Source: a virus. Taken from it: 62,867 nt of DNA. A program made the translations under genes and the position numbers. The stretch's first letter is position 1; every line of letters begins with the position of its first letter. Positions 11,880 to 30,593 of the stretch are shown here, piece after piece. The notes under the pieces were generated by a model, which saw nothing but the letters and a program-made list of their open reading frames with translations, made no database searches and had not been told where the DNA came from. Where the stretch lies: positions 1-62,867 of the IMG/VR virus record IMGVR_UViG_3300032050_000130. The stretch is one strand, 5' to 3'.

Positions 11880-11898
11880 TTTGTATATATAAGTATAT
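11880..11898 (-). promoter_or_regulatory. 19-base repeated upstream element, copy 2
   Basis: This is identical to 8638-8656 and lies 18 bases upstream of the ATG at 11862. It touches the stop codon of the gene at 11898-12287, so it fills the whole gap between the two genes. Confidence 0.4.
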
Positions 11899-12287
11899 TA
11901 TTTTTTATTTTTTAAAATGTTAGTGGTACTAAACCCTTCGATTTTATTGAAAAATTCTATTTTTGGAATATATTCTACTCCTATTATTTCGTCATATTTG
12001 TAATCGTTACCAATAACCATAACATCAGGTCCCCATTCTTTGATTCTTTCTATCAATTCCGCATCGGAACTAAACGATACAACACTATGTACACTTTTTA
12101 TATTTGATAAAAATTCAATTCTATCGTTTAGGTTGTTATATGGTCTATTTTCTCCCTTTTTGGATTTTACTCTTTCATCCGTATCAATACCAACTCTTAC
12201 TTCTCCAAATGTTTTCGCAAATTCCAATAAACGTAGATGTCCAACATGAAGTATATCAAATGTACCATTTACCCAAACCTTATTCAT
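11898..12287 (-). CDS. Cytidylyltransferase-like nucleotidyltransferase, HldE C-terminal type
   Basis: This 129-residue enzyme has GTFDILHVGH at residues 8-17, the HxGH signature of the TagD/HldE/cytidylyltransferase family. NRPYN, a VIGNDYKYDE stretch and a late GFSTTNIL (the family STT/ISTT element) follow. It would attach a nucleotide to a phosphorylated sugar or polyol. Beside a heptosyltransferase-like gene, an ADP-heptose-forming role is the most natural inference, with glycerol-3-phosphate as an alternative substrate. The length fits a stand-alone domain. Its ATG overlaps the stop of the heptosyltransferase-like gene by one base, so the two are co-translated. Confidence 0.85.
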   Translation of the reverse strand: MNKVWVNGTFDILHVGHLRLLEFAKTFGEVRVGIDTDERVKSKKGENRPYNNLNDRIEFLSNIKSVHSVVSFSSDAELIERIKEWGPDVMVIGNDYKYDEIIGVEYIPKIEFFNKIEGFSTTNILKNKK

Positions 12288-13429
12288 TATAAAAATTTTT
12301 CCAATTCTTTAATTACCATTTGTCCTGTAATATATTTAGTACATTCAAATTGTCTATGTGTACCTTTATGGTCTGGACACCAGTTCCAATCCCCTGCATT
12401 CAATCTGATTCTATTGAAACAACCTTCACATTTCCCTTCAGGTGAACCTATTCGTACACAATCTTGCATTTCAGCCCATTTATAAGAAAATCCACTTACC
12501 AAAACGGTTGGTACTTCTAATGCCCAACTTAACCAACTTAATCCACTACCAATTCCAATAAATGCGTTTGAACGTTTTAATTCTTCCATTACATTTTCAA
12601 TTGGACCGTTTGGATGATGAATGATTCCTTTTGGAAGCTTATTACCCATATAATCATCACCTTCTTTTGATATAAGTCTTACGGTGTATCCTTTAACATT
12701 TAACCAATCAACAACTTCTTGCCATCCGGTTGGATTATTCCAAAATTTAGATTGTGCAGTTCCAAATACGCCAATACATACTTGTTTTTCTTTTTGTAAT
12801 GTTTTAACTTTTTTTAGTTTTGGCTTTACTTCAACATATTCCAATCCTAATATGTCAGAACACATTTGTTGTAATGTTACCGCTTTTGGGTCAATAGGAT
12901 TTTTAAAAAAGTTTACCGAACTATCTTCATTATAAAATAATCCGATTGTGTGCATGGAATATAAGTTTTCTACATTTGTTCCTGGTTTTACGAATTGTAG
13001 TTCTGGATATTGTGTTTCAAACATATCGTTCATAAATGTGGAAACTATTACCTTACATTTATGCTTTTTTCTAAATTCATCAACATATGGAAACCATGCT
13101 AAAGAATCTCCTAATGCTTTTGAATCTAATGCAATATAAACTCTTTTATCCTTTGCATCGTATGTATGTTCAAACCATAATTTTCCATTTTCAAATATTT
13201 CAATTTTCCATTCTACAAAATATTCAATACTACATCTTGCCCAACAATTATTTGTAATTTCTGATGTGAAGTGAACTTTATTAGTTTTATTATCAATAAA
13301 TTTTATAAGATAATTTGATACTTTCGGTCCTTTTATTTCTACAAAGGGGCCCCTAACAAAATGAAATAATACTCTGTTTTGTACTTCTACTTTATTATTT
13401 TTATTCTTTTTTAAATTATTATAAATCAT
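12287..13429 (-). CDS. Heptosyltransferase-like glycosyltransferase, TibC/AAH type
   Basis: This 380-residue GT9-like enzyme has an N-terminal beta-rich part with SEITNNCWARC, then YIALDSKALGDSLAWFPYVDEF at about residues 120-140, a Rossmann half with GVFGTAQSKFWNNP, and GIGSGLSWLSWALEVPTVLVSGF near the nucleotide-sugar site. Near the C-terminus four Cys are spaced C-x2-C-x13-C-x11-C, resembling the iron-binding finger of bacterial autotransporter O-heptosyltransferases (TibC, AAH). Those enzymes add heptose to Ser or Thr of secreted proteins. A start at 13438 would need TTG; the ATG at 13429 overlaps the previous stop by one base. The acceptor is unknown; a Thr-rich protein is encoded nearby. 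Confidence 0.85.
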   Translation of the reverse strand: MIYNNLKKNKNNKVEVQNRVLFHFVRGPFVEIKGPKVSNYLIKFIDNKTNKVHFTSEITNNCWARCSIEYFVEWKIEIFENGKLWFEHTYDAKDKRVYIALDSKALGDSLAWFPYVDEFRKKHKCKVIVSTFMNDMFETQYPELQFVKPGTNVENLYSMHTIGLFYNEDSSVNFFKNPIDPKAVTLQQMCSDILGLEYVEVKPKLKKVKTLQKEKQVCIGVFGTAQSKFWNNPTGWQEVVDWLNVKGYTVRLISKEGDDYMGNKLPKGIIHHPNGPIENVMEELKRSNAFIGIGSGLSWLSWALEVPTVLVSGFSYKWAEMQDCVRIGSPEGKCEGCFNRIRLNAGDWNWCPDHKGTHRQFECTKYITGQMVIKELEKFL

Positions 13430-15084
13430 TAGTCCCAAGTTTTTATTGTTTCATCAAGTAATGAATATCCTTCAACTTGCTTACTATACACTTTATTAGT
13501 AGTGTATCTTAATTCTTGATGGTGATAGAATATGTGGTTAAACCAAAGGTCACCAACATCCCATTCACAATCTTTTATTCTTTGATTCCACCATTCTCTA
13601 TCGGTATTCCTTAACAAATAACAATGTGCCAAATCTTGATTATGAGCGGTTTTACTAAAATCCTCATCCACTACTTCTTTATATTGACTTAAGTTATTTG
13701 CCAATCCAATATAGTAAACGTTATTCTTTTCTGCTATATCACATGCTTTATATACTATATCAACAAATTCTTCAACGGTTGAATAAATAAAACCATCTGC
13801 TTCAAACACTAATGTATAATCGTAATCTCTATTTAAATTTTCAACTGCCATTTTATGTGCCAAATAGCAACCATAATGTCTTCCAGTAATCCAACCCAAA
13901 CCAGCTCCAGGATATAATTCTCCAGGTTTATTATCTTTACTTAAATGGTCAGGTCTTCTACAATGTTCTTTTGGTGCAAAATCTTCATAAACTTCATTTA
14001 CAATTGGAACATAGTCCATTCCATAACTTTCCAATTGACGAATAGATTTCATACTAAATCGTTCTCTATCGTTGTATGGGGTTGTTAGTAAATGTTTTAT
14101 TTGTATTCTTGGCTTTTCTGAAAATCCTTCTTTAAATTCAGGTTTTAGATTTTCTATAAGAATTTGTTTAGTTGCATTTGTATCATCGGTTATATATGTA
14201 ACCAACGGATTGGCATCATATGTATCCAAATATGTATATAATTTTCTAAAGATGCATTTCATTTTAAAAGATAATGCTTCTTTTATAGAAAGAGGATTTA
14301 GTTCTAATATTGATGAAAAATAAAAAAGGTCACATGCCGCATAAAACGTATCAACATCATCACGCTCTCCCCAAACAATACAATTATCTGGTTTGTTTTT
14401 CATCAATGGTGACCAATATGTTTCGTAATTCATAGCCTGATTACCTACGAAATGAAATTTAATTTTATACTTTTGTAATTTTCTTGCTATTTCAAATATT
14501 TCCGCTTGGTTTTTTCCAGGCGAAAATAGCCCAACCATTAAAACATGTTTGTAATCTTTTTCTAATCCCAATTCTATTTGAGATTCCTCTTTATTAAATG
14601 AATATTCTTCTATTGGATATTCCCAAGTAGTTAATTCAACACCAAGATTAGATTCTTCAAATTTCTTTTTACTCCATTCCGATACCAACACATATCTATC
14701 TGGTTGATATACTATATCCGAAGGATTTGTAAACGAACCATGTGTTGTTGCAACAATATTATATTTTCTTTTATTATCAAATATTATATCCAACACATAT
14801 TCTGGAAGGTCAAACTGCGGTATCTCCTGAAAATGTATTATATCAGGATTAAAATTTTGAATTACATCTATAATTTTAGATTTATCTTCTCCCAATGTAT
14901 GAACGGGTACTAAACTTTTAATACGATTTTTTTGTACCACAAATGCAGTACCACCACTATTGTTTATTTCAACAACTTCAATTTGAAAATCAGATAAAAA
15001 ATGCTTTATCTGTTTATAGGTATATTGTGGTTGTCCACCCGTAGAAAGGTGCGGACATATGTAAAGTAACTTCTTTTTTTGCAT
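13429..15084 (-). CDS. Two-domain glycosyltransferase, GT4-like plus GT-A-like
   Basis: This 551-residue protein joins two glycosyltransferase-like parts. Residues 1 to about 310 form a GT-B enzyme of the GT4 kind, with YICPHLSTGGQPQYTYKQI at the start, VGLFSPGKNQAEIFE mid-way and an ELNPLSIKEALSF stretch near the donor site. Residues about 350-551 look like a separate GT-A or GT25-like domain, with an acidic VFEADGF resembling a DxD metal site. No signal peptide or membrane helix is seen, so it acts in the cytoplasm. It precedes the heptosyltransferase-like gene with a one-base overlap and probably extends the same glycan. Confidence 0.82.
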   Translation of the reverse strand: MQKKKLLYICPHLSTGGQPQYTYKQIKHFLSDFQIEVVEINNSGGTAFVVQKNRIKSLVPVHTLGEDKSKIIDVIQNFNPDIIHFQEIPQFDLPEYVLDIIFDNKRKYNIVATTHGSFTNPSDIVYQPDRYVLVSEWSKKKFEESNLGVELTTWEYPIEEYSFNKEESQIELGLEKDYKHVLMVGLFSPGKNQAEIFEIARKLQKYKIKFHFVGNQAMNYETYWSPLMKNKPDNCIVWGERDDVDTFYAACDLFYFSSILELNPLSIKEALSFKMKCIFRKLYTYLDTYDANPLVTYITDDTNATKQILIENLKPEFKEGFSEKPRIQIKHLLTTPYNDRERFSMKSIRQLESYGMDYVPIVNEVYEDFAPKEHCRRPDHLSKDNKPGELYPGAGLGWITGRHYGCYLAHKMAVENLNRDYDYTLVFEADGFIYSTVEEFVDIVYKACDIAEKNNVYYIGLANNLSQYKEVVDEDFSKTAHNQDLAHCYLLRNTDREWWNQRIKDCEWDVGDLWFNHIFYHHQELRYTTNKVYSKQVEGYSLLDETIKTWD

Positions 15085-15769: not shown

Positions 15770-17767
15770 TTATTCAAAAATTGCAGAAGCACATCCTCTA
15801 CAAATCGTTTCATATGAGTTTTCAACCATTTTAACATGCTCATCAGTTCCCCAAAAATCTCTCAATTCCTGCGTTTTAAAATCCCCAAACTGCATTTCCA
15901 TTTCATAATCATTACAACAAAGGAACGCTTTTCCACTTGCATTTACATGAACCCACCCAATAGGTCTACCACCAACCTCTCTACCATTTCCACACCCAAT
16001 CACTTTTTTATCAGCAACATTTCTTTTCAAATTTCTTTCTATTGCAGGTTTGTTACTCATTACTTCATCCAGTAGTCCAGCTCTATCAATAAGATATGGT
16101 ACTGTAAAAATATTCACACCTGGAAATAATTCTTTCGCTTTTTTCTCTTGCTGAACTAACTCTCCATTTTGTACATCTAAGTCAATATCCTGTGGGAATT
16201 GTGGACCTTTTTGTAACCAACCGCCTTTCTCAACAAATGATAATTCATGCGAACCATTTATTTGAATTGAGAATGCTTTTCGTTTTACCATTTCTGGTAA
16301 TTGTTCTACTGCATATTTTATATTAGATATTAGTTTATCAAATTGCTTTATATTAATACCACTTCTCTTACTCCAAGTATCCGCATCAAATGCAGGTGTA
16401 TTTAGGCAGATACCACTTAAACAATCTTGATACTCTTTTAGTATATCAACTCTTTCCGGTGTTAGTGGTATTCCATTTGAAAGTACCATCGTTACTAATT
16501 TATACTTTCTACATATTTTAAGTATTTCTTCAAAGTGCGGATATAAAAGAACTTCGTTATAATGCGCTGTGTAAAATCCATTAAATGCTTTTGATACTAG
16601 TCCATCTGGTCTTTCTCTTTCATCGATAAGATTTTTAATTATCTTTTCAAATAGTTCAGGACTCATTACTTCTTTACCGTGGTCAGGATTTCCTTTATAT
16701 CTTACTGGGCAAAACCAACATTTAGCATTACAAACTCCATATGGGTCTATTTGTAAGTTTGTTATTTTATAATCATTAAATTGAGTTTGAACTAAACTCA
16801 TTTTTGGGTGTTCAATTAATATAGATGTTTTTGCGGTTTCACAAATTTCTTTCCAATAATATGAAGAAGCAAACTTATCACTTATATCTAACTTCGCATT
16901 ATAAGGAAGTTTATCCGTGTATGCCCCTTTATAAAATAAACCTTTAGCATACGAATGTACATGAGTTGAATCTGCCACAACTCCTGCATTATGTAGTATA
17001 GGATATTTTTCTACTTCCGAAATATCACCAGTTACCCAACCAAAATCCAATCGTTCATCTACTATTGTTTCATGTCCCGCTAACCAAGCATTCCAAAGTA
17101 AACTCCACATACCCGCAGTCCATTTTTGTATTGGATAATCGTATTCAGTTTTTTTAACATGCAAATGTTCAGTATCACAAAAATATTTATATAAATTTAT
17201 ACTATCAGTTTCTACTTTATCCCAAAATTCATATGTAGTGTTTTTAACAATATATTGCGCTCCACCTGAATTATTATTTAGTAGCTTTGGTATTAGTGGG
17301 TCTATTCCAACTATTTCACACATTTTTTTATATGTATGGTCACCTTTACCGATTATATAATCATAATTTATATAAAATTTAGTATTAGATAAGTACCAAC
17401 TATTACCTTTTATCATATCATCAAATTTCGGTGGTTTTGTTAAAACTATATCCGAATCATGTAAAAATAAAACATCATCTTGAATTTCTGGCCTTGCAAC
17501 AATATGTTGCTTCATTAAATTAAAATAAATAGATGGTTGATAACCTTTATCGTTTCTAGTATCATTATAAAAGAAAAATCGTATAGTATTGTAATGTAAC
17601 ATTAATTTCTTCCATTCATCCGGAACAATACCATTTTCTATACCACATACAATATCAATATAATTTGGATTTACTCCCATTTTTTTGAAGTTGTTAATTA
17701 GAACTTCAACTTGCCAAGTGTAATAAGTTATTGCCGGTTGACAACAAATGTAACGAATTTTTTTCAT
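15770..17767 (-). CDS. Glycosyltransferase-like and radical SAM/SPASM-like fusion protein
   Basis: This 665-residue protein has two parts. Residues 1 to about 320 resemble a GT-A nucleotide-sugar transferase, with DDVLFLHDSDIV as a DxD-like metal site near residues 100-110 and a later GGAQYIVKN stretch. Residues about 330-665 are a radical SAM domain with the cluster motif C-x3-C-x2-C (Cys346, Cys350, Cys353). More Cys lie at about 592, 617-618 and 654-657, in a pattern like a SPASM auxiliary cluster domain. Such enzymes modify peptides or sugars by radical chemistry. The substrate is unknown; the location points to glycoprotein or glycan modification. The fusion is unusual for a phage. Confidence 0.85.
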   Translation of the reverse strand: MKKIRYICCQPAITYYTWQVEVLINNFKKMGVNPNYIDIVCGIENGIVPDEWKKLMLHYNTIRFFFYNDTRNDKGYQPSIYFNLMKQHIVARPEIQDDVLFLHDSDIVLTKPPKFDDMIKGNSWYLSNTKFYINYDYIIGKGDHTYKKMCEIVGIDPLIPKLLNNNSGGAQYIVKNTTYEFWDKVETDSINLYKYFCDTEHLHVKKTEYDYPIQKWTAGMWSLLWNAWLAGHETIVDERLDFGWVTGDISEVEKYPILHNAGVVADSTHVHSYAKGLFYKGAYTDKLPYNAKLDISDKFASSYYWKEICETAKTSILIEHPKMSLVQTQFNDYKITNLQIDPYGVCNAKCWFCPVRYKGNPDHGKEVMSPELFEKIIKNLIDERERPDGLVSKAFNGFYTAHYNEVLLYPHFEEILKICRKYKLVTMVLSNGIPLTPERVDILKEYQDCLSGICLNTPAFDADTWSKRSGINIKQFDKLISNIKYAVEQLPEMVKRKAFSIQINGSHELSFVEKGGWLQKGPQFPQDIDLDVQNGELVQQEKKAKELFPGVNIFTVPYLIDRAGLLDEVMSNKPAIERNLKRNVADKKVIGCGNGREVGGRPIGWVHVNASGKAFLCCNDYEMEMQFGDFKTQELRDFWGTDEHVKMVENSYETICRGCASAIFE

Positions 17768-17784
17768 AGTAATTAATTAATGTT

Positions 17785-19152
17785 TTATAAACACGATGTA
17801 CAGCTTACTCCTGTGGTTACCGTTCCAAAGAACAATGGTAAATTAGCTGGCCCAGGGTAACCACCAAGTCCAACCTGACTCCACGTTTCTCCACCAAACG
17901 ATATACATCCAGGTGTACTTCCTGCTATACCTTCATAGGTATATTGTGCTCCACCATACGCACCTACACCGGTACACGGTTCGTAATCCCAATATTCATA
18001 GACTATTGCAGCTGTAGTTGTTGTAGTTGGTGCTGCTGGACACGAAGTACAATCAGTTCCCACATAAGTAGAACCATCACCCAAATCAATATCAAATGAA
18101 GGACCAAACGTAGGCTCAAGTAATCTAACACAGGTATATGGTGTAGGAGTTTCAAATACACTAAACGCTACTTGGTCAACACTAAATCTTACAACCAAAG
18201 TAGTTGCCGAATAACAATATTCAGCACTCCAATAGAAATATGATGGTGCAGCCGTTGTAGTTGTAGTTGTTGTAGGTGCTTCCGTTGTAGTTGTAGTTGT
18301 TGTAGGTGCTTCCGTTGTTGTTGTAGTTGTTATAGGTGCTTCCGTTGTTGTTGTAGTTGTAGTAGTTGTTGTAGGCGCTTCCGTTGTAGTAGTTGTTGTA
18401 GGCGCTTCCGTTGTAGTAGTTGTTGTTGGTGCTTCAGTTGTAGTAGTTGTAGTTGGCGCTTCCGTTGTAGTAGTTGTTGTTGGTGCTTCAGTTGTAGTAG
18501 TTGTTGTTGGTGCCGCAGTTGTAGTAGTAGTTGTTGTTGGTGCCGCAGTTGTAGTAGTTGTTGTAGTTGTTGTAGTTGTAGTAGTTGTAGTAGTTGTTGT
18601 AGTTGTTGTAGTTGTAGTGGTTGTAGTAACCGATAAACACGTACCCTTATCATCTAAAGTTCCATTATCACTAATAATAAAATAATTAGTTCCATCTGAA
18701 TAATATCCATTGGGTGCGGGAATTGTCAATCCACTATTAGTAAATATTTGTAGTGTATTTTGTAACACAGTTCCTCCAAACGAATAATAAGTTGTTGGTG
18801 ATGATGTATAATCGTAACAAGAATTTGCGGCAGAAGAAGCATGATATCCCAAGCTAAACGATGAAGGAGCCAAAGTTGTAGTTGTTGGTGCTGGTGGTTC
18901 TGGTGGTGCTGATGTGGTTGTTGTGGTTGTGAATGTAATAGATGCTGATAAACAATCACTGGTCGCTGTACCAAATGTTTCAACAACCGAACCTCCAGGT
19001 ACGGTATATTCATCAGTTTGTGCGGAGAATATTATTGAACCAATTTTAGAAGGTACAAAAACAGTTACTTCATTTCCTTCACATTCAGTCCATGTAACAT
19101 CGCCAGATGTTCCATTTGGTAAGGTTGCTCTATATAGTGTTGATGATGGCAT
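17785..19152 (-). CDS. Thr-rich mucin-like secreted-type or virion surface protein
   Basis: This 455-residue protein has three or four short Cys-containing beta-rich modules joined by Thr tracts. Residues about 75-92 hold a short Thr/Pro linker. Residues about 176-302 are nearly pure Thr, broken by EAP, AAP or IT, ending at SYFYWSAEYC. A third short Thr run lies near residue 380. Each module has Gly/Tyr-rich sequence and paired Cys, and the protein ends TSCL. No signal peptide is seen, so it is more likely a virion decoration or fibre than an exported protein. The Thr/Pro tract is what O-glycosylated mucin-like stalks look like, and glycosyltransferase genes are adjacent. Function unknown. 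Confidence 0.75.
   Translation of the reverse strand: MPSSTLYRATLPNGTSGDVTWTECEGNEVTVFVPSKIGSIIFSAQTDEYTVPGGSVVETFGTATSDCLSASITFTTTTTTSAPPEPPAPTTTTLAPSSFSLGYHASSAANSCYDYTSSPTTYYSFGGTVLQNTLQIFTNSGLTIPAPNGYYSDGTNYFIISDNGTLDDKGTCLSVTTTTTTTTTTTTTTTTTTTTTTTTTTTAAPTTTTTTTAAPTTTTTTEAPTTTTTTEAPTTTTTTEAPTTTTTTEAPTTTTTTEAPTTTTTTTTTTEAPITTTTTTEAPTTTTTTTEAPTTTTTTTAAPSYFYWSAEYCYSATTLVVRFSVDQVAFSVFETPTPYTCVRLLEPTFGPSFDIDLGDGSTYVGTDCTSCPAAPTTTTTAAIVYEYWDYEPCTGVGAYGGAQYTYEGIAGSTPGCISFGGETWSQVGLGGYPGPANLPLFFGTVTTGVSCTSCL
18245..18627 (-). repeat. Thr-codon tandem repeat tract
   Basis: This region encodes the main poly-Thr stalk. The plus strand repeats units such as gttgtagtagttgttgttgg, with gcttc or gccgc spacers that encode the EAP and AAP steps. 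Mixed ACT, ACA and ACC codons and near-identical units of about 24-30 bases suggest growth by slippage or unequal recombination. The stalk length is expected to vary between relatives. Confidence 0.85.
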
Positions 19153-19164
19153 TTATATTTTTTA

Positions 19165-19623
19165 TTAAAAAGGTGATTCTCCTAATATATCAGTAGGCCA
19201 TGTTTGTTTTAATTGAATTGCGGTTGTCACATCTGAAAAATCCATATTTGGCAAATCTCTTAATTGTTGTTTTTTTGTAACTATTTCTTGAATTAATGTT
19301 TGATTTCCGGTTTCTAATGCTCTCATATATTGTAAATCTAAATCCGGAAATAATTCACTTCTTTTATATCTCAAATAATTTAAAAATAATTCTTTTGCCT
19401 TTTCTAAATTTAAAGATGGAATCGCAGTTGAACCATTCTCATCATTAAAATTAAAATCGTAACAAAAATTAAATGAATAATCAATTTCAGAATCATCATA
19501 CATAAAAACGTAATTTGAATCCGATGGTATTACTTTTTTGATTATAAAATCAATAGTTTCTTCATTCGGTGATATCCACTTAATATCACCATTTTTTTCA
19601 CTTATAATTAATTTTGGTTTCAT
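19165..19623 (-). CDS. Tail fibre assembly chaperone-like protein
   Basis: This 152-residue protein lies 15 bases after the giant fibre gene. Its C-terminal half contains RSELFPDLDLQYMRALETGN followed by KKQQLRDLPNM, which resembles the Phage_tail_APC-type fibre assembly chaperones, where an RQ-x-LRD pattern is typical. The N-terminal half is beta-rich and acidic. Small chaperones coded next to a long fibre gene help fold or trimerise the fibre tip, so the position supports the call. The family is judged by pattern only. Confidence 0.65.
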   Translation of the reverse strand: MKPKLIISEKNGDIKWISPNEETIDFIIKKVIPSDSNYVFMYDDSEIDYSFNFCYDFNFNDENGSTAIPSLNLEKAKELFLNYLRYKRSELFPDLDLQYMRALETGNQTLIQEIVTKKQQLRDLPNMDFSDVTTAIQLKQTWPTDILGESPF

Positions 19624-19638: not shown

Positions 19639-22600
19639 TTATCTTGCCAATACTACAAAATCAACAAATTCAGGTGTCCAATGTCCAGCAAGGTTACCGC
19701 CAATATAGGTTGTTACAATACCAGGACTAGTATGACTAGGTCTTTCTATTCTAAAAGAAAATCCACTAATACTTTTTCCAGTAATTACGGCCATATTTCC
19801 AACTTCTTGGCTAGCATATGCTACGTTTGACGTTGTGGTTTGAACAATATAATCCGTAGAATCCATTGGATTGGTAAAAATTACATCATAAATATTAAAT
19901 GAACCTACAGCTAATGTACTACTAATATTGTAACGATTTAAAATAGTATAGTTTGCAGCATTTGTAATACCACCACCATTGTATCTAATTGTTCCAAATG
20001 CTTTTACTGCAGATGGATTTCCATATCCATTACTATATTTACTAATCGACCTATCGACCATTAAACTACCTGTGATTTCGGTTGAAAAGTTATAAGAACC
20101 ACTTACACCATCTCTTACCCTCAAATACTTATCATCTGCCAATACGGCCTGGAAGCCACCACCATTTATAATAGTACCCGCTGATATTGTTTTTATTGTT
20201 ACAGTTCCAGTAGATGCTGCAAACAAGCTTGTATCTACTTCCGAATCAAATCCATACGGAGGATACTGAGACGGGTCAGATGTATCATTACTATGCGCGT
20301 ATGCGTATCCAACTAAAGTTAAATAATAAGTTACTCCAGATTGTAAATCTGCCAATATTGTCATTTTTGTTGCCGGCAAATAAGAAGTTTGAGATCCTGG
20401 ATAATAAGATATTGTATATTGAAATCCGTTCCATTCATAATATTGATTTACCGTACCTTGTGCAGATGCAATTGCATAGTTTGAAGTTTCTACATAATTA
20501 GTAAATGGCTGTGGATAATGTCCTCCTGTTGTGAGAATCAAACGTAAGTATAAAGTCCCATCCGCTGAACCATTTGCGGTTACATAATTATTATAACTGA
20601 ATGGTAAATTATATGTTATAACATGTTGACCGGCTGCTTGAGTGGTGAACGAACCATTTGAACTTGGTATAATATTATAATCATATGCAATAGTTCCACC
20701 ATAATATGGGTCAAATGTTCCATCATTTGGTACACCATTAGTTTGATTTGATGAAGTAGTATATGTTGGTAAAATAGCATTTGGATATGTTATGCCAGTT
20801 GGTTCTGGTAATGTTAATTTTGTATTTGCGAAAAATCTTAAACTACCTGCGCCATCAAATACCGCAATTGATTCGGATGGTTCTGAATATAATCTAATAT
20901 TTTGGTCTGCTGATATTATTGATCCAGGTCCTATAGTCCATCCACCAATTGTACCATCATTTGAATTAATAGAACCATTTATAGATAAATCTTCACCGTT
21001 CCAAAGAAGCGAACCAGATACTCCCTTTAATGATAATTTCGAAACCCCTTGGTCAAATCCCATAAAAATTCCAGTATTATCATAACCTTGAACTTGAGAT
21101 TCTGTAACCCAGTTACCAGGACCAATACTAGAGCTTATTTGTCCAATAGATAAATAAGGATTAGCATTAGAACCACTTTCATTTGCATTTAAAACAATAA
21201 GTGAATTTGCTCCTCTTGCACCGATATTAATAGTTTTATCAACATATTGTTCTACTGCAAATAATACATCGGTTGCTACTGAACTGAATTGTGCACCAAA
21301 CGAAGTCCAGTTTGTATTTCCGCCACCAGGATAATTCCAAAATGTACCGGCACCTTGAGTACCCGCACTTCCATTCAATCCCGTATTATTTGTGAGATAG
21401 TATGTACTACCATATTTAGTAATATCTTTTCTTTCGGTTGTATGAAAATATCTTTCATTTGGATTAAATAATCCCCTATATACAACACCAGGACCAGGAC
21501 CCCCAGCAGTACCAGTTGTGCCCGCGGTACCAGTGGTGCCGGATGTGCCAGTTGTTCCAGATGTACCAGCTGCAGCGGATACTGCCCAAGTATTGGTTGC
21601 ATCCGGTGGATAACCGGTATTAATATTGTTATCGTTTGTAGAAGTATGTGTATTTGAATTTATCCATGTAGATGATGCATATCTTACAGTATCGTCTGGA
21701 TAATAGGTTACCCCAGAAGCCCATATACCTCTATAACTTCCTTCAGGAATACCAGGTTGTCTTTGACGTATAGAACCAACTATAGTCAATTGGTCACCAT
21801 CCCAAAACATTCCCTTACCAGATGTACCAGTTGTTTTAATTGAGAAACGTCCTGTTGTACCATTTGCACCGTCTTCATAAACACCCATAAAAATACCGGG
21901 TCTATTATACCCAATTACACCCGGTCCGCTAATTGAAGTTCCTGTACCCGATGTTCCTTGTGTACCCGTTTGGCCTATGGCAATATATGGGTCAGTTCTA
22001 CCACCCGCTAATACAATATTGGCAAAAGCACCAGTTCCATCTTTAGTACCAACATTTAAAGTATTCTTTACATATGATTCTTCAAATATCGCAATCTTGG
22101 CCGATACAAAAAATTCTTCTTGTCCTAAATACTGCCAATATGTTGTATCAGTATATGGTGCCGAACCATCTGGTTGTTGTGCTCCAACCGGTGTTCCAGG
22201 TCCACTACCTGTTATAGCAGCCCAATAGTGTGTTTCTTTATTTATTGTTGCTGGGTCAGGCCAAATTACAGCATCTCTTCTTTGGTTTGCTATTTCAGAT
22301 ATATAATCAATAGTTGAACTCCATATACCTCTCATCACAATACCAGGACCAGTATTACCTTCATATACTACTGATAGAGAAAGAGTTTTATAAAGCGTTT
22401 CTCTACCTTCACAATCTATTTGGAATATAATTTCACCGGATGAAATTGTTTCAGGACTTGACCAATTACTTATACCTGCAAAAGATGCCGGACCACCCGA
22501 AACATGAGAACCAGCCGTTAATCCACCGGCCAAAGTTAAATGTCCAGAGTATGATAGAATACTTACTCTACATTGATTTGGATATCCGGTTACACCATAT

Positions 22601-25600
22601 GCATCTAATTGCCCTCCGCTAAAAGTTGAAACATTTGTTAATTCTAAATCTCCTCTAAAAACTCTTATTGTAGTTGTAGATAAATCAAATTCGACTTCTC
22701 CAGAAACTCTATATATAATTCCAGCGTTTTCACTGGATAAGTTTGCACTATAAGGTGCCGGTGGTGTAAATTGAACTGCTAATGATTGTGTTACAAAATC
22801 AATTTGTCTATTTTTTTCATAATCGATTTTATAAATAATTTCAGCACTATGATTAACCGCAGGTGCGTACCAACTAACTATATCGTTAATTGCCGCAGGG
22901 TTACCTATCAATCTATTGGGTGGTGCAACATTAATCCAAGAAGATGTAGTAAAAATTGATGCAGAATAATATCCAAGGTTACCAATTAAATTTCCTAAAT
23001 AATCATTAACTTCTTGCGATATAACGTATGATGATGTATGTGCTAATTGAGTTGTACCTTTAAATGCCGAAATTTGCATTCCACTTCCCGTAAACTGCGT
23101 TGTCCACAAATCAGCGGTTATGGATGCATTGGTATTTGTTGCAGAGTATTTGTATGCATCTGCCCCACCCTTAATACCGGCTATTGTTAATTGTGCTTCT
23201 GCTTTTATTATTGATGGTGGTAATGGAACTGATGGAGTTACAGTTGGTGCCGCACCATCGGTTAATTTTACTTTCCATGTTTTGTTTTCACCAGGTCCTG
23301 CAGCATCACCACCACTTATTCCGCTAAATTCACAAAACGGCGGTGTTCCTTCCAATACACTAGGCCCTGCATAAAATGTTTCACTACCATCCGATTCTAC
23401 ATAATACAAATATGCATTCGGTCCATCAGTTTGACCAGGTATGTACGAACCTGTTGTGTTGAATGCAGTTACGGTAAGTGTAACATCACCAACATCAGTA
23501 TATCCATCTCTATCGTAATTAATTGTAGCCGTTGATGCTCTAAAATCCAATGAACGTGCATTTGGTGGTGCTACGTTTTTTGTAAATGTTTGAGTCCTAG
23601 TAAAAATAGAAGATGTATATTGATGCCCGCTCCCCAATGCAAATGGATATACTTGAATTGTATATAAAGCACTTGCAGAAACATATGGTGCATCAAACCT
23701 ATTATAATTTATAGTAGCTGTACTTAATGAAGATGATGATAATGAACCCGTTCTTATATTCCAAACTCCAGAATTACGAGTTTCTATTGAATTTATTCTC
23801 CAAGTACCCGGTGCAGTTGAACGCGTTGTAAAGGTAAGAAAATCATCACCTTCTTTAACAGTCAATGTAGTGTTCGTACTTGCATATGAAGAAATATAAC
23901 CAACTTCATCCGCAGGTATTGCCACCGATGTTGGTGATATTACAATCTGAATCGGTGGAGGTCCATCTAATATTTTTGTAAAATACTGATACACACTCGC
24001 TGTATAAACCGATGATGTGTAATACGGTTGAATCTCTAATGGAAATTCAATACTTCCACTTAAATTAGTCATATTAGATGATGCACTAAAAATAAGTGAA
24101 TGAGTATAGTTGTTATCAAATCTTATATTACCATTTGTTATATTATTTGCTACAATAGATGCTGTTGCAATATGGAATGTTCCAGGAAATCTACTTCCAG
24201 TAAATAACAAATATCTAGACCCTTGCTTCAATCTAATTTCACCAGTAGATGGTTTATAATCATTTACAATACCTCTTGAGTTTGCATTAAGATTTACATT
24301 CGCAGGAACTATTTCAAATACTATACTTTCATCTCCAGGTTTACCTTCTGGAACAATTGTAAACGTTTTATTAATGCTTACTGATTCCGAAGAATATGGT
24401 TCAATATAAGTCCAATTTATTGTAAGAGTTTTACTTTGAGATAAAGGTGTTCCTACAAATTGATTTTCTAAAGTAGAATTTATAATGTAGTTATTATCAT
24501 CAGTTGCACTTATTTTAATATCAGAATTTACACTCTGAGTCATATAATATACCCAATACTCTGGTACAAAATCTGAATTTATAGACATCGATGGGTAAAC
24601 CATAACTGATGCCGAAATTGGATTTGAACTTGTACCCCTTCTATAAAACGATGCAGTTGCACTTGCAGATGGTGGAGTAAATACTTTTGATAATCTTGGA
24701 TTTATAGTAAATGCATCAGCATCGTAGGTTACAAATCCAGCATCAATACCATCTAATAAATCCGTTAATGTTAATGTTGTATAAATTGATGCAGTTACAT
24801 TAGGATTTGTTGGAGTAGGTTCTGAACCCGATGCTATTAAGTAAATAGTTCTTTGCCCATCTATTGAATCTCTATTAAAAATTGCATTATAATCAAGTTC
24901 TCCAGAACCGGTAACACCTGGATAAATTCCTTTTACAAATCCACTGGCAGATGCATCGGTCAATGTTACATAATATGAACCAGAAGCAACGTATAATCTA
25001 TTACTAGAACGGCCGTATGGCAATCCACTTCTAATATCTAATTCGTTTATTCCATCTATTCTTACTGCCTGAACTTCAAGTGAACCAGATGGGTCATTAT
25101 TTCTAATTACAGTTCCTCTATATGGTCTTATCTCATAATTTACACCACCCTTACCATCTACAACTCTTGTTATGATAATGGAATCATTTATTCCTTCACA
25201 CTCACCGGTAAATTCTATATATTGAACAACAATATCTTCGTTAGAACCTGTAAAGTTTGCAACAGTTAAAGTTAATAAATCAGTTTCTCTATTCAAAAGT
25301 AATCCAGGCACTTGTCCCCCAACGTATTGAGAAGAAGATAATTCATTTCCAAAAAAATCAAAAGAACGAGATGTATATGTTACCGAACCGGTTAAATAGC
25401 TTTTTATTACATCAATCGAAATTACGGTTGGTGGAATAGGGTTACCATTTCCGGATCCAGAATCAAATTGGAAATATAAAGAAGATGGAACTAGTTGTAA
25501 ATCTTTATTAATTACATTTAAATTACCACCATCAAATGTTTTACTTTCTTCAACAACTACAGGAATATAATTGTTATTAATATCGTAAAACTGAAATCTA

Positions 25601-27177
25601 AAATCAAATGTTTCTCTCGGTAATGTTCTCGGTATTGGTTGAATAAATGAGATTTCATCCGGAGAAAATGCAGTTTCTTGTGATGCTCTTAAACTTACAT
25701 CCGATATATACCATGCATTTCCTTTAACTTCAAAAAATAATTTTACATCCGATAAATCTTCCGCTTTAAAGTTTGCAGTTATTTGAGATTTTTGTAATAA
25801 ACTATTATCGGAAGTTACATTTAAAATATTTTGCTTTGTGCCTACATTTGTTATTACATTGTTATATGTAGACTGTTTAGAACCACTTAAATATACCAAA
25901 AGAGTATCAGTAGTATTAATTGGACTACCCGCTCTAACGTTAAATGTTAAACTATATTCACTATCAGCATTAATATCTAAAGATTTAGTTGTATAGAATA
26001 AATTTGTTCCTGAACTGTTTAATTTAACCGAGTTGTATAGATACGTTTGATTAAATTCAGTAGATAAATTATTAGAAGAAGTTACCCAATAATTTTTAAA
26101 ATTAAATAAATCAAATCCACCATAATATTCTTCATTCTTAACAGTTGTTTCTAAATCTCTTAATATTTCATTAGACTCTAACTGAATTTCTTGTATAAAT
26201 TGATAATCGGAAAGGTCTGATTGAGATTTTCTGAATATCTTTACTCTAGCCACATCCCCTACGAATGTAGTTAAATCCGATAATGTTATTTTTGCAAATG
26301 AACCGGTAAGTGCGGTTTTTAAATTATCTAGTCCCTCAATATAATTAAATGATGCGGTATATCTTTGATTTGAAAAATCTGATACCAATCCATTTACGGT
26401 ATAAGGATTAGTAATTGTTAAATCAGTTTTACTAATTATATCATCTGCTTGTGAAAAGAAATTAAGGTCAGTAAATTCAATTGTTGTTCCAACTACCGAA
26501 CCCGTCCATGCACCACCATCGTTAATTTGTACAAGATAACTTGTTGGTTGGCTAAAATTTGTAAGGGGAGTACCGGCGGCGGGTACTTGTGAAAAACCAT
26601 CTACATGCCCTTTTTGTGTTATTGTAGAGCTAATATTAGAATAAATAGGTTTTACTATTTCCGTAATAGATACGTTTGGTCTTTTATAAAATCTTACCTT
26701 ATCCTCATTCGATAATAATCTATTAATTTTAAATGGTTTTTCCCATTTTACATTATAAACATTTTTCCACTCATCAGGTACATCTCTTACAACACCACCG
26801 TCATCTACATAACTTTTCAACTCACCGAGAATAGTAATCTTTGCTTCACCTATCGGAGTATCTTCGTATATATAAACTGCTATTAGTTTAGAAGTACCTT
26901 CATAGTATTCAGGTACACCATTACCAGGTTCATAATAAACAGGATTGCCAGCAACATCTAATATTTGTATTTTTATTTCAGTTGTTTCTTTTAGATATTC
27001 AGACCCTTCTATTAAAAATCCATTTTTACCACCAGTAAACGTATCGTTAAATTCGGTAATTTTAAAATATGTGGAATTCGGACTGTCATCTATCAGAAAT
27101 GTTTGAAAAGAACTTAATGTCTGTACTGGATTTAAATTACTTTTCTGACCATCTGCGTATTTTTTTATTCTTGGCAT
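19639..27177 (-). CDS. Giant tail fibre or adhesin-like virion protein
   Basis: This 2512-residue protein is the largest in the window. The N-terminal 170 residues form a conserved-looking attachment domain with FTGGKNGFLIEGSEYL and PEYYEGTSKLIAVYIYED. Residues about 180-1500 are beta-rich with repeated Ser/Thr/Asn-rich modules like Ig-type domains. At about 1735 and 1869-1897 there are short collagen-like G-x-y runs (GTSGTTGTSG). Near these are repeats such as YRGIWASGVTYYPDD and VYRGLFNPNERYF that resemble carbohydrate-binding W/Y-rich modules. The last 100 residues are probably the receptor-binding tip. It is divergent from the plus-strand gene and directly followed by its likely chaperone. 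Confidence 0.85.
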   Translation of the reverse strand: MPRIKKYADGQKSNLNPVQTLSSFQTFLIDDSPNSTYFKITEFNDTFTGGKNGFLIEGSEYLKETTEIKIQILDVAGNPVYYEPGNGVPEYYEGTSKLIAVYIYEDTPIGEAKITILGELKSYVDDGGVVRDVPDEWKNVYNVKWEKPFKINRLLSNEDKVRFYKRPNVSITEIVKPIYSNISSTITQKGHVDGFSQVPAAGTPLTNFSQPTSYLVQINDGGAWTGSVVGTTIEFTDLNFFSQADDIISKTDLTITNPYTVNGLVSDFSNQRYTASFNYIEGLDNLKTALTGSFAKITLSDLTTFVGDVARVKIFRKSQSDLSDYQFIQEIQLESNEILRDLETTVKNEEYYGGFDLFNFKNYWVTSSNNLSTEFNQTYLYNSVKLNSSGTNLFYTTKSLDINADSEYSLTFNVRAGSPINTTDTLLVYLSGSKQSTYNNVITNVGTKQNILNVTSDNSLLQKSQITANFKAEDLSDVKLFFEVKGNAWYISDVSLRASQETAFSPDEISFIQPIPRTLPRETFDFRFQFYDINNNYIPVVVEESKTFDGGNLNVINKDLQLVPSSLYFQFDSGSGNGNPIPPTVISIDVIKSYLTGSVTYTSRSFDFFGNELSSSQYVGGQVPGLLLNRETDLLTLTVANFTGSNEDIVVQYIEFTGECEGINDSIIITRVVDGKGGVNYEIRPYRGTVIRNNDPSGSLEVQAVRIDGINELDIRSGLPYGRSSNRLYVASGSYYVTLTDASASGFVKGIYPGVTGSGELDYNAIFNRDSIDGQRTIYLIASGSEPTPTNPNVTASIYTTLTLTDLLDGIDAGFVTYDADAFTINPRLSKVFTPPSASATASFYRRGTSSNPISASVMVYPSMSINSDFVPEYWVYYMTQSVNSDIKISATDDNNYIINSTLENQFVGTPLSQSKTLTINWTYIEPYSSESVSINKTFTIVPEGKPGDESIVFEIVPANVNLNANSRGIVNDYKPSTGEIRLKQGSRYLLFTGSRFPGTFHIATASIVANNITNGNIRFDNNYTHSLIFSASSNMTNLSGSIEFPLEIQPYYTSSVYTASVYQYFTKILDGPPPIQIVISPTSVAIPADEVGYISSYASTNTTLTVKEGDDFLTFTTRSTAPGTWRINSIETRNSGVWNIRTGSLSSSSLSTATINYNRFDAPYVSASALYTIQVYPFALGSGHQYTSSIFTRTQTFTKNVAPPNARSLDFRASTATINYDRDGYTDVGDVTLTVTAFNTTGSYIPGQTDGPNAYLYYVESDGSETFYAGPSVLEGTPPFCEFSGISGGDAAGPGENKTWKVKLTDGAAPTVTPSVPLPPSIIKAEAQLTIAGIKGGADAYKYSATNTNASITADLWTTQFTGSGMQISAFKGTTQLAHTSSYVISQEVNDYLGNLIGNLGYYSASIFTTSSWINVAPPNRLIGNPAAINDIVSWYAPAVNHSAEIIYKIDYEKNRQIDFVTQSLAVQFTPPAPYSANLSSENAGIIYRVSGEVEFDLSTTTIRVFRGDLELTNVSTFSGGQLDAYGVTGYPNQCRVSILSYSGHLTLAGGLTAGSHVSGGPASFAGISNWSSPETISSGEIIFQIDCEGRETLYKTLSLSVVYEGNTGPGIVMRGIWSSTIDYISEIANQRRDAVIWPDPATINKETHYWAAITGSGPGTPVGAQQPDGSAPYTDTTYWQYLGQEEFFVSAKIAIFEESYVKNTLNVGTKDGTGAFANIVLAGGRTDPYIAIGQTGTQGTSGTGTSISGPGVIGYNRPGIFMGVYEDGANGTTGRFSIKTTGTSGKGMFWDGDQLTIVGSIRQRQPGIPEGSYRGIWASGVTYYPDDTVRYASSTWINSNTHTSTNDNNINTGYPPDATNTWAVSAAAGTSGTTGTSGTTGTAGTTGTAGGPGPGVVYRGLFNPNERYFHTTERKDITKYGSTYYLTNNTGLNGSAGTQGAGTFWNYPGGGNTNWTSFGAQFSSVATDVLFAVEQYVDKTINIGARGANSLIVLNANESGSNANPYLSIGQISSSIGPGNWVTESQVQGYDNTGIFMGFDQGVSKLSLKGVSGSLLWNGEDLSINGSINSNDGTIGGWTIGPGSIISADQNIRLYSEPSESIAVFDGAGSLRFFANTKLTLPEPTGITYPNAILPTYTTSSNQTNGVPNDGTFDPYYGGTIAYDYNIIPSSNGSFTTQAAGQHVITYNLPFSYNNYVTANGSADGTLYLRLILTTGGHYPQPFTNYVETSNYAIASAQGTVNQYYEWNGFQYTISYYPGSQTSYLPATKMTILADLQSGVTYYLTLVGYAYAHSNDTSDPSQYPPYGFDSEVDTSLFAASTGTVTIKTISAGTIINGGGFQAVLADDKYLRVRDGVSGSYNFSTEITGSLMVDRSISKYSNGYGNPSAVKAFGTIRYNGGGITNAANYTILNRYNISSTLAVGSFNIYDVIFTNPMDSTDYIVQTTTSNVAYASQEVGNMAVITGKSISGFSFRIERPSHTSPGIVTTYIGGNLAGHWTPEFVDFVVLAR

Positions 27178-27274: not shown

Positions 27275-27451
27275 ATGAAAAAATACTCAATGATACAAAT
27301 TGATGCTGAAATTCATCAATTATTAAAAGAATTTTGTAAAGAAAGAGGATACAAAATAAATGGATTAGTAGAAACCCTTATAAAAGAAAAGGTAGAAGCT
27401 TCAAAGAAACCTCTACCTAAAAATATATTACCAGTTAATTCTAAAAGTTAA
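27275..27451 (+). CDS. Small ribbon-helix-helix-like protein, only plus-strand gene
   Basis: A 58-residue reading frame starts at ATG 27275 and ends at TAA 27449-27451. It begins MKKYSMIQIDAEIHQLL and continues as a two-helix pattern, KEFCKERGYKINGLVETLIKEK, then a basic tail. A short beta strand followed by two helices with a Gly-containing turn is the layout of ribbon-helix-helix (Arc/CopG-type) DNA-binding proteins. No Shine-Dalgarno is obvious, only an A-rich leader. Its end overlaps the end of the SbcCD-like gene by 11 bases, tail to tail. It is likely a transcriptional regulator; an antitoxin is possible but no toxin gene is adjacent. Confidence 0.7.
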   Translation: MKKYSMIQIDAEIHQLLKEFCKERGYKINGLVETLIKEKVEASKKPLPKNILPVNSKS

Positions 27452-30400
27452 TTTTAGAAAACCCATTATCCTTTTTAATCTCAATTAACCCATCTACGAT
27501 ATCTCTCATTTGTTCCAAGTGAGAAATCATCCAAATAAAATCGAATTGTGTTTTAAGATACTGCATCATCATAAACAATGAAGATAGATTATCCGCATCC
27601 AATGTACCAAACCCTTCATCTATTACTAGGAAGTTAGGTCTAGGTAATCCACAGATGTTAATTAGAGCCACTCTAATAGCCAGCCCGGATATAAACTTCT
27701 CCATACCACTACACATCTCTAAATTCCATGCCTGGTCTTCGTAAACGATTTTAGCGTTAATGTTCTTACCATCGGTATCCATTGAAAGTGAGAAATCTAC
27801 AACTTGTGCTAGAATATTGTTTACTTCATTCTCAATTACCGGCATTGCTTTAGAAATAAGTTCATAAGGTACACCATCTTTTTTAACAGCATCCAAATAG
27901 TAGGTATATAAATCATTCTTTTGTTCTAAATCTTTAACTTCTTGTATTTTAGATTTTGTCACATTTATAAACGATTCAATAGAACCCATCTCACCAGTAA
28001 TAGTCAATATTTTTTTATTGGTGATTGCAATATCACTTTCTATATTTTTCTTATCAACTTCTAAAACTCTAATTTCTTGGTTTATTGCTGTATTTTTACT
28101 TATCGTTGCAATGTTTTCGTTATATCGTTGAATATCACTATCAACACCTTCTAATTGAGTTTTAAGAAGTTCGGTTTGTGTTTCTAAACCATCTAATTCA
28201 GCTTCAGTCTTTTCTTTAAGTACAATTCCTTTATTATACTTATTTCTTAAATCAACCAGCTTTTCCCATACTTCCTCTACTTCGGAAAAAGGTTCAGTTA
28301 CTCTTATCAAAGCATGTTGTGCAATATTAAGTGTTTCTAACTGTGATTCCTGTGTTTTAACTATTTCTTTTGTTGCAATTGCATCCTTCACAAATACATT
28401 GTTCATACAAAACTTACAATTTGGGTCATATTCATGTGTTTCCAAATGTGTAAGCTTCTCTAAATTCCTCTCATATTGAGATTCCAAACGGTCTATTTGT
28501 TGTTGAATATCCGATAGTTTACCTTTTGCAAGGTCCCACTCTTTCTTCGCATCATCTATCGATAACCCATTAACATTATCGTACATACTAATTGATTCCG
28601 ATACTTCGTTTAAAACCCCCTCAAACTCTTTTATTTTCGATTCCTTTGTTTTCTTATCATTACCATTACTTTCTAATTTCCTCTCAATGGTCCTTCTGGA
28701 ATCACCCAATACGTTGATATCCAGATTAGAATCAGTAGGTATCAAAGATTCCTTTAAATCAGATATTTGATTTTGGATTCTATCTCTGGATTCGGTATAA
28801 TCTTTTAGGGTTTTATTTAAATCATTTAATTCTGATTTTTTAGTATTGAATTCGGTTTCCTTCGTCGCCAATTCAGAAGTAAAATCATTACGTTTGAAAT
28901 TTCTGATAAGTACAGCCACTTCCTTAATGTCTTCAGCCGCCGCTTCATATAATTTATCAAATATATCCAATCCCATAAATTGAACCAATAGGTCTTTTCT
29001 TTCCGATTGTGGTTTATCAATGAATAGAGCGTTGTTTCCTTGTAGTGAAAGTGCGGTTAGTACAAAATCTTCATATCTTCCCACATACCCTTCGATAACC
29101 TGGTTGGTATCCCTTCTTTCAGTTCCATTAAGGGATTCAGCTACCCCATCTAACGTTCTCCAAAATTGTACATCTACTTTAACGTTCTTTCCCTTATTAA
29201 CAGTCCTTGCTTCCCTTCTTATTGAGTATTCTACACCTTCTATTTGAAAATCCAATTGGCAATGAAAATCGGCCTTTCTATTGTTCATAACATGTGCCGC
29301 TTTGAATGCTCTACTACACTTATCAAATAGACAAAATGAGATTGCATCAAATAGAGATGATTTTCCGCTTGCATTTGGTGCAAACAATCCCATCAATCCA
29401 GTTACTTTGCCGAAGTTTATCACATTATCTTCTCCGTATGAAAACATATTACTGAATTCAAATCTTACCGGCTTCCATTGTACGTTTCTCGTTAGTTCGT
29501 CCGCAACTATTCTACTATTAATATCTTTATTAAGAGATTGAATTCCGGCTATATCTTCTGCACTAACAAACGGCATCATTCTTTGGATATAATCAGTAAT
29601 TAGGGAGTTTTGATAATTAACATCAGTTATATCTTCTAATTCCAATTGATTATCTCTATCACCGGTTTTCTTTTTCTGTAAACTATCCGTTTTAATTGTT
29701 GTAAAATCTTCTACACCATATTTTATTTTGATTTCGGTGATTGCTCGTTTGGTATCTGCTACATCGGTTTCAGAAAATCTTACTCTTAAACGGGGATGGA
29801 CAGGCATATCGGTTACATCAGGTACTACACCATTTATAACATCCATCGTATAGTAACCATAATCGTTTTGGATATCAACTTCTTCATAAGTCATTGTATC
29901 TAAATCCCAAACAAGAAATCCGTGCTTATCTAATGTTTCACCAAAGTTTTGTTGCACTAACGAACCTGCATAAACACACTTACAACCTTTAGGGGAGATT
30001 AGTTCTTGTCTTTTGTGGATATCACCTAATAGGGCTAAATCGTATCCATCGAACATATCAGTTGTGAAATGACGAGATGATACAACGTAACCTATATCGG
30101 TTTGTGAATGGTCCACAGGTCCGTGAAATAGTGCAATCTTTTTTCTGGCCGGCATCATTGTCCAATCATCCGCTTTAGGCCAATTATCTTTATTATCAAA
30201 AATAGAATATACCGCAAATGCAACTTTATCTTCCCAAAAGATTTGTGTATCTTTTAAGTAATGAAAGTTTGGAAGATTAAGTGCTTCCACAATAGGTGAA
30301 AGTACATCCAACCTATCGGAGTTATTCATATTACAATCGTGGTTACCCGCAATCAATATCGTTTTACAATGTTTAGAACATTCGGTAAACAACCAACTAA

Positions 30401-30593
30401 TTTCTTTAACCAATTCAGGTGACATTTCTAGTTTAGCATGTGCGATATCACCTGCTAAGTAGATTAGAGAATCTTCAGTACCTCTGGTACGAATTTCTTC
30501 AAACATTTTTTCAAAGACACCTCTAAATTCTTTGTGTCTCTTTACATTACGAATATGGATATCCGCAATATGATATATTCTTTTTAAACTCAT
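27441..30593 (-). CDS. SbcD-SbcC (Mre11-Rad50) fusion nuclease, gp47-gp46-like
   Basis: One 1050-residue chain joins what T4 encodes as two proteins. Residues 1-340 are a calcineurin-like phosphoesterase with D11-x-H13, GD at 48-49 and GNHD at 83-86, the Mre11/SbcD nuclease. Residues about 375-1050 are a Rad50/SbcC-type ATPase: Walker A with Lys411, long coiled coils, a zinc hook Cys726-x2-Cys729, and Walker B with Asp992-Glu993 in VIDEGFGTLD. These complexes resect DNA ends for recombination-dependent replication. All key motifs are present, so it looks active. The ATG overlaps the primase stop by four bases (ATGA), and the end overlaps the plus-strand gene. Confidence 0.93.
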   Translation of the reverse strand: MSLKRIYHIADIHIRNVKRHKEFRGVFEKMFEEIRTRGTEDSLIYLAGDIAHAKLEMSPELVKEISWLFTECSKHCKTILIAGNHDCNMNNSDRLDVLSPIVEALNLPNFHYLKDTQIFWEDKVAFAVYSIFDNKDNWPKADDWTMMPARKKIALFHGPVDHSQTDIGYVVSSRHFTTDMFDGYDLALLGDIHKRQELISPKGCKCVYAGSLVQQNFGETLDKHGFLVWDLDTMTYEEVDIQNDYGYYTMDVINGVVPDVTDMPVHPRLRVRFSETDVADTKRAITEIKIKYGVEDFTTIKTDSLQKKKTGDRDNQLELEDITDVNYQNSLITDYIQRMMPFVSAEDIAGIQSLNKDINSRIVADELTRNVQWKPVRFEFSNMFSYGEDNVINFGKVTGLMGLFAPNASGKSSLFDAISFCLFDKCSRAFKAAHVMNNRKADFHCQLDFQIEGVEYSIRREARTVNKGKNVKVDVQFWRTLDGVAESLNGTERRDTNQVIEGYVGRYEDFVLTALSLQGNNALFIDKPQSERKDLLVQFMGLDIFDKLYEAAAEDIKEVAVLIRNFKRNDFTSELATKETEFNTKKSELNDLNKTLKDYTESRDRIQNQISDLKESLIPTDSNLDINVLGDSRRTIERKLESNGNDKKTKESKIKEFEGVLNEVSESISMYDNVNGLSIDDAKKEWDLAKGKLSDIQQQIDRLESQYERNLEKLTHLETHEYDPNCKFCMNNVFVKDAIATKEIVKTQESQLETLNIAQHALIRVTEPFSEVEEVWEKLVDLRNKYNKGIVLKEKTEAELDGLETQTELLKTQLEGVDSDIQRYNENIATISKNTAINQEIRVLEVDKKNIESDIAITNKKILTITGEMGSIESFINVTKSKIQEVKDLEQKNDLYTYYLDAVKKDGVPYELISKAMPVIENEVNNILAQVVDFSLSMDTDGKNINAKIVYEDQAWNLEMCSGMEKFISGLAIRVALINICGLPRPNFLVIDEGFGTLDADNLSSLFMMMQYLKTQFDFIWMISHLEQMRDIVDGLIEIKKDNGFSKINF

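Follow-up and report, generated by a model that had tools for sequence, protein, structure and literature searches.

A poly-threonine stalk protein and an adjacent GT-A-fold glycosyltransferase as a probable mucin-like glycosylation module of tailed phages

In the window (the whole stretch of viral DNA analyzed here, 62,867 nucleotides), the gene for a protein with a long poly-Thr tract, here called the stalk protein, adjoins a gene whose product begins with a predicted GT-A-fold glycosyltransferase domain, here called GTa. We consider it highly probable that the two form a two-part mucin-like module, in which GTa puts sugar on poly-Thr, and that the module represents a general, portable phage system. 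This reading is supported by the co-occurrence of GTa and poly-Thr tracts and by a matched comparison of tail-tube loci. A preliminary description of the sequence had linked glycosylation of the stalk both to the adjacent enzyme and to heptosyltransferase and GT4 genes nearby; the former link has held, and the latter has not.

RESULTS

Source virus and stalk protein

The source virus is known from metagenomes alone, as a 62.9-kb linear IMG/VR record, and portal, terminase, and baseplate matches identify it as a T4-like phage. Its nearest isolate by terminase is Flavobacterium phage immuto (56%), in which the region upstream of the terminase gene has no annotated glycosyltransferase. All window features described here are on the minus strand. 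A 1050-aa ORF (27441 to 30593) has a metallophosphoesterase (SbcD-like) match at 2 to 241 and an SbcC-like match at 297 to 1049, and because both are in one ORF, its predicted product looks like a fused SbcDC nuclease. A second low-complexity protein (53528 to 54958; 476 aa) contains an 11-residue poly-Ser run and is encoded with 12-nt tandem repeats.

The stalk gene (17785 to 19152) is an intact ORF for a 455-aa protein, which has full-length homologs in three loci (L002, L006, and L028) and no Pfam or PHROG family match. Its main poly-Thr tract, the proposed O-glycosylation acceptor (residues 176 to 304; 18241 to 18627), was delimited by composition, codons, and tandem repeats. The preliminary description had reported about 125 residues of nearly pure Thr with EAP/AAP steps, and we found 129 residues, ~94 of them Thr, with an alphabet limited to T, A, E, P, I, and S. 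A run of 27 unbroken Thr residues is followed by T6-7 EAP/AAP units, seen at the DNA level as a degenerate repeat with a nucleotide period of 27 to 30. Two short tracts were recognized by composition, an N-terminal Thr/Pro tract (residues 75 to 93; 18874 to 18930) and a C-terminal Thr (Thr/Pro) tract (residues 372 to 383; 18004 to 18039). The C-terminal Cys-containing domains (17788 to 18243) are 66 to 72% identical among relatives, with the exception of L002 (57%), and are also kept in relatives with a Pro/Ala linker. In the AlphaFold model of the whole stalk (five sequences), most of the protein has low confidence and residues 1 to 65 alone are well modelled.

The Thr codons of the tract are mixed (ACA, 48; ACT, 38; ACG, 7; ACC, 1), similarly to those of the neighbouring genes, which shows that the tract is maintained as a protein sequence rather than as a simple DNA microsatellite. 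The full-length homologs have a Thr tract too, and the mixed codons together with this conservation rule out a DNA-slippage artefact as its origin. Tract lengths in homologs are 128, 116, 116, and 100 residues. With regard to the earlier suggestion that stalk length varies by repeat slippage, no slippage was seen between the window and L001, the same virus from another sample, in which the tract is identical.

Between the stalk gene and the gene for a 2512-aa fibre-like protein (19639 to 27177) is a 152-aa gene (19165 to 19623) that matches phrog_20196, for which no function is given, and that is also kept in L002, L006, and L028. From this gene position we infer the placement of the stalk in the virion.

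The glycosyltransferase-radical-SAM fusion gene

As the preliminary description had it, the stalk gene adjoins a glycosyltransferase-radical SAM gene: the next gene downstream (15770 to 17767; 665 aa) encodes a fusion of GTa with a radical-SAM/SPASM part (GT-rSAM), matching phrog_4417 (1e-61), Radical_SAM (3e-10), and SPASM (7e-7). The name GTa refers to the N-terminal phrog_4417 domain (16823 to 17767). Its AlphaFold model (pLDDT, 94.8) matched UGGT, WbbM, and glycogenin in Foldseek (best E value, 8e-7, the others weaker; TM scores, 0.4 to 0.5), with a Foldseek probability of 1.00 for UGGT and glycogenin. An alignment of 26 sequences (the window domain and 25 relatives) revealed a DxD motif (D104-S-D106; 17450 to 17458) in which both Asp104 and Asp106 are invariant, as are His259 and several Trp residues. 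On the basis of the modelled fold and the DxD motif, GTa is predicted to be a GT-A-fold glycosyltransferase. We were not able to assign it to a named family, as there was no significant Pfam or PDB sequence match and only a single weak match to HPAT (0.02).

The radical-SAM/SPASM part (15770 to 16762) scores above the Pfam gathering cutoffs (Radical_SAM, 40.8 bits against 29.5; SPASM, 29.9 bits against 21.5) and has a weak sequence match to BtrN. The radical-SAM protein is encoded by a separate gene in seven related loci (L103 to L107, L111, and L112), and the GTa of Bacillota phages and prophages is encoded on its own, in an ORF of ~290 to 365 aa that lacks the fused radical-SAM part.

Homologs of both parts also occur in other gene contexts. 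The chromosomal GTa homologs examined, from Bacteroidota, adjoin LanC-like or C39-peptidase ABC-transporter genes; in two of them (L303, 5001 to 9823; L305, 3955 to 6713) the protein has 534 to 570 aa, and because of these neighbours such homologs may glycosylate peptide natural products. Phage relatives of the radical-SAM part alone adjoin PF11397 glycosyltransferases and 2OG oxygenases. In the loci with a radical-SAM relative and no GTa (L118, L125 to L132, L142, L144, L146, L160, and L167), PF11397, a Pfam family to which polypeptide alpha-GlcNAc transferases belong, is often no more than two genes away, and Thr tracts and 2OG oxygenases are sometimes close. The chromosomal and PF11397 gene contexts both hint that the acceptors are peptides.

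Co-occurrence of GTa and poly-Thr tracts

Loci were retrieved by the GTa or GT-rSAM sequence alone, and an ORF was scored as poly-Thr when it encoded at least five consecutive Thr residues (T5+). Among the relatives of the window module retrieved with GT-rSAM, the directly upstream gene was T5+ in 13 of the 14 loci in which it was visible and, after dereplication at 95%, in 11 of 12, these and the following counts being of loci and genomes and not of independent evolutionary events. Many of the Thr proteins in the GT-rSAM loci have no recognizable relation to the window stalk, and GTa and the radical-SAM protein are separate genes in several. When the GTa alignment was searched against bacterial genomes, a T5+ ORF was close by in 35 of 36 loci of Bacillota prophages (directly upstream in 32), the tracts being typically C-terminal on capsid-sized (~390 aa), small, or tail-tube-sized (~210 aa) proteins. 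The same alignment led to a nearby T5+ ORF in 29 of 30 nonredundant loci on viral contigs and in 1 of 32 loci of chromosomal homologs, almost all from Bacteroidota. In cultured phages with GTa, all eight that were read directly had poly-Thr, mostly at the C terminus of the capsid protein, the tail-tube protein, or a small neighbouring protein. The tract is on capsid or tail-tube C termini in the Bacillota members, and that of the window is internal and on another protein. GTa is present and a Thr run is not visible in L110, L297, and L404. Control phage loci contained T5+ in 6 of 1104 and 1 of 872 ORFs (0.1 to 0.5%), at which rate a control locus of ~12 ORFs would contain a T5+ ORF ~6% of the time. 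The association proposed earlier between the Thr tract and the adjacent glycosyltransferase therefore proved stronger than had been suggested and extends across very different phages.

Staphylococcus phage SA2 (L450, 5117 to 5930) and Arcanobacterium phage TPWB06 (L454, 5164 to 5926) have a tail-tube gene with poly-Thr at its end, and a second ORF, overlapping it in a different frame, carries on with a long Thr tract. Programmed frameshifting could yield a minor form of the tail tube that has a Thr extension.

For a matched comparison, the same 397 genomes from a single order were searched with a tail-tube protein minus its Thr tail and, separately, with GTa. Of 30 tail-tube loci read, T5+ ORFs were present in all 5 from genomes with GTa versus none of the 25 from genomes without it (Fisher P = 7e-6, on counts of genomes that are not independent evolutionary events). 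Poly-Thr was inside the tail tube in four of the five; the fifth tail tube ends in GTTTSTTSA, and a nearby ORF has T8. Identity to the query reaches 71% among the 25 tail tubes from genomes without GTa, and T5+ was absent from the stretch read. Poly-Thr is thus present or absent together with GTa on proteins that are equivalent in other respects.

Stalk relatives and poly-Thr tracts without GTa

In an IMG/VR scan, true Thr-tract homologs of the stalk were found in L002, L006, and the contig of L013 and L028, in addition to the same virus in L001, and the GT-rSAM gene is directly downstream of the stalk gene in all of them. Three further relatives (L003 to L005) share the C-terminal domains at 66 to 69% identity and have a different N terminus and a (PTPAPAA)n linker; in these the GT-rSAM gene is absent and a gene for a 2OG-Fe(II) oxygenase comes next. 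Stalk relatives of this (PTPAPAA)n type with the oxygenase gene directly after (L003 to L005, L059, L063, and L064) belong to one lineage only. The oxygenase could hydroxylate Pro. As a general counterpart of the Thr/GTa pair, however, this pairing was rejected, since it was confined to one lineage (3 contigs); the oxygenase is absent from five other Pro/Ala-repeat loci, and we regard the pairing as a lead only.

Searches in the other direction started from the tract. Viral loci that combine a T6-EAP-T4 tract with a Thr ORF numbered 77; GTa was found in 31 of these and was the adjoining gene in 25, and whole-record searches added at least six further T6-EAP-T4 records with GTa. The preliminary description had noted that wide occurrence of the stalk protein without the enzymes would speak against glycosylation. 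On this point the outcome was mixed: every Thr-tract stalk homolog adjoins GTa; on the other side, about half of the viral contigs with T6-EAP-T4 show no GTa, many of these being short fragments and some encoding Thr tracts on different proteins, such as putative lysins. Two GTa-free T6-EAP-T4 loci have a PF11397-type glycosyltransferase three genes off. GTa is thus a far better predictor of poly-Thr than poly-Thr is of GTa.

These observations bear on the possibility that the Thr tract is an unmodified, flexible spacer whose low-complexity composition is arbitrary and that GTa, a mere neighbour, acts elsewhere, on host surface glycans or DNA. Poly-Thr can serve as a plain linker, tracts without GTa exist, and one stalk relative has a Pro/Ala linker at the same place. 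That Pro/Ala version, however, is the one without GTa, non-homologous Thr proteins adjoin GTa in unrelated phages, and in the matched comparison poly-Thr was found solely with GTa (5/5 versus 0/25), so we consider a bare spacer unlikely. It is instead likely, if a little less so than the module itself, that poly-Thr is a portable O-glycosylation tag that is read by GTa (phrog_4417) in tailed phages of Bacillota and Bacteroidota. A short T6-T10 tail on capsid or tail-tube proteins and a mucin-like stalk of 130 residues would be two forms of the tag. In some aquatic phages, a radical-SAM enzyme coupled to it would bring about a further modification of sugar or peptide.

The heptosyltransferase, ADP-heptose, and GT4 genes

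The heptosyltransferase and GT4 genes that the preliminary description had placed near the stalk are both present, with gene edges 2.7 to 5.5 kb from it. The product of the first (12287 to 13429) is a TibC/Aah-type protein O-heptosyltransferase that is not stalk specific, with a TIGR04414 score of 289.6 bits (cutoff, 200) and a match to TibC (4e-58). The enzyme is not of the LPS type. In phmmer alignments with the TibC crystal-structure sequences, all four metal-binding C-terminal Cys residues of TibC were aligned in the window enzyme. It is followed by a gene for an HldE-C-like heptose-1-phosphate adenylyltransferase (11898 to 12287; phrog_7878, 9e-36; TIGR02199, 98.9 bits, below the cutoff of 181.5), and some relatives also have a PfkB/HldE-N-like kinase, both proteins being below the strict equivalog cutoffs. 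Given the TibC-type enzyme and its HldE-like neighbours, the phage probably contributes to ADP-heptose synthesis and attaches heptose to protein, not specifically to the stalk. We found no NCBIfam repeat match of the strand-loop-strand autotransporter substrates in the stalk or the 2512-aa fibre. The GT4-type glycosyltransferase (13429 to 15084; Glycos_transf_1, 2e-13) has 551 aa in the window and ~720 aa in most relatives, and the longer relatives have an extra methyltransferase domain in the middle (PF13578 in L006).

A scan of viral contigs with the heptosyltransferase gave 80 loci that were compared for gene order. The conserved late-gene order is fibre, small gene, GT4, heptosyltransferase, HldE-like genes (in many), small gene, nucleotidyltransferase, terminase, and portal, and the 2512-aa fibre is co-conserved with this cassette. 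The stalk/GT-rSAM pair is a rare insert in it: of 46 contigs with a visible fibre-GT4 junction, 2 have GT-rSAM and a Thr stalk, 2 have a Pro/Ala stalk (L059 and L063), and 42 have neither. At least 119 viral contigs have conserved heptosyltransferase and HldE-like genes among their late genes (11898 to 13429 in the window; L015 to L094), and heptosyltransferase relatives are also found in Microcystis phage Mel-JY01 and in phages of 636 to 735 kb.

TibC-type enzymes act on Ser/Thr-type acceptors of proteins, and the window enzyme, a TIGR04414 member with an adjoining ADP-heptose gene, might accordingly be thought to put heptose on the Thr residues of the stalk. That the cassette glycosylates the stalk is nevertheless improbable, even more so than the spacer, as the cassette persists without any stalk at 42 of the 46 junctions and occurs beside the Pro/Ala stalk, and as Bacillota GTa phages show Thr tails in loci retrieved independently of it. 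The earlier link between the stalk and the heptosyltransferase and GT4 genes was accordingly dropped. Because the cassette persists in these 42 stalk-free relatives, its substrate is probably some other protein, for which the 2512-aa fibre is a guess, and a separate system acting on another substrate is the best explanation of the cassette.

DISCUSSION

In the mechanism that we propose for the stalk/GTa module, the stalk protein would carry the poly-Thr acceptor tract, and the adjacent GTa would transfer sugar from a nucleotide-sugar donor to many of its Thr residues in O-linkage, a reaction that we infer from the association of enzyme and tract. Transfer would take place in the host cytoplasm, where particles assemble, before the stalk joins the tail-fibre region. 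Dense sugars could make the tract extended, soluble, and protease resistant or could coat the particle. The fused radical-SAM/SPASM part would probably further modify the sugar or the peptide. Elsewhere, the acceptor in this pair would often be no more than a T6-T10 tail borne by the major capsid or tail-tube protein, and the heptosyltransferase, ADP-heptose, and GT4 cassette would act separately on its own substrate. Peptides are often the substrates of SPASM-type radical-SAM enzymes and LanC-like and C39 genes are near chromosomal GTa homologs, but it is very unlikely, more so than either of the other alternatives, that the radical-SAM/SPASM part is the real modifier of the Thr residues themselves (e.g., by epimerization or cross-links) and the GT-like domain an accessory, since Bacillota phages and prophages with stand-alone GTa and no fused radical-SAM part still have poly-Thr and the GTa fold is a glycosyltransferase fold.

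The pairing of GTa and poly-Thr in phages of many unrelated bacteria points to a widespread, unnamed route of particle glycosylation. Phage particle glycosylation has so far been documented for few phages; if the proposal is correct, it could be predicted from genomes by a poly-Thr acceptor and a dedicated, unannotated enzyme family, and a function would be given to a PHROG that is present in dozens of sequenced phages and hundreds of viral contigs. The module would be a bacterial-virus counterpart of mucin-type O-glycosylation, with tag and enzyme found together on unrelated virion proteins, and prophages of lactic acid bacteria would be easy test systems. The conserved TibC-like heptosyltransferase that is encoded among the late genes hints at a further pathway of protein glycosylation in this group of phages. 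In the part of the literature covered, no paper linked poly-Thr tracts with a phage glycosyltransferase or named the GTa family, a coverage that leaves priority unproven.

Comparison with known systems

GTa belongs to PHROG 4417 by HMM (1e-61), a PHROG without an assigned function, and the role proposed for it here is new. With UGGT (GT24), glycogenin (GT8), and WbbM it shares fold and DxD motif at ~10% identity. The heptosyltransferase (12287 to 13429) belongs with TibC and Aah (TIGR04414) and, unlike them, is encoded in a phage late-gene cassette. Mucins and serine-rich repeat glycoproteins have long Ser/Thr tracts that are densely O-glycosylated, in the latter inside the cell (PMC7948813, PMC6973325). 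The likeness of the stalk to these proteins is one without demonstrated homology, and the stalk case is proposed for virion proteins and involves no export system.

The closest phage parallel is found in mycobacteriophages Che8 and Rita, in which, according to the passages of PMC12619734 and PMC11256854 that cite Freeman et al. (2023), the capsid and tail-tube proteins have glycans at their C termini whose placement is credited to phage glycosyltransferases. The phage records that the GT-rSAM search matched include no mycobacteriophage, and the GTa family therefore seems to be different from the mycobacteriophage enzymes. As far as those passages describe the Che8 and Rita system, the likeness is in the capsid and tail-tube C termini as sites, candidate ones in the GTa phages, and the difference is that the GTa system has a recognizable poly-Thr acceptor and a separate stalk protein.
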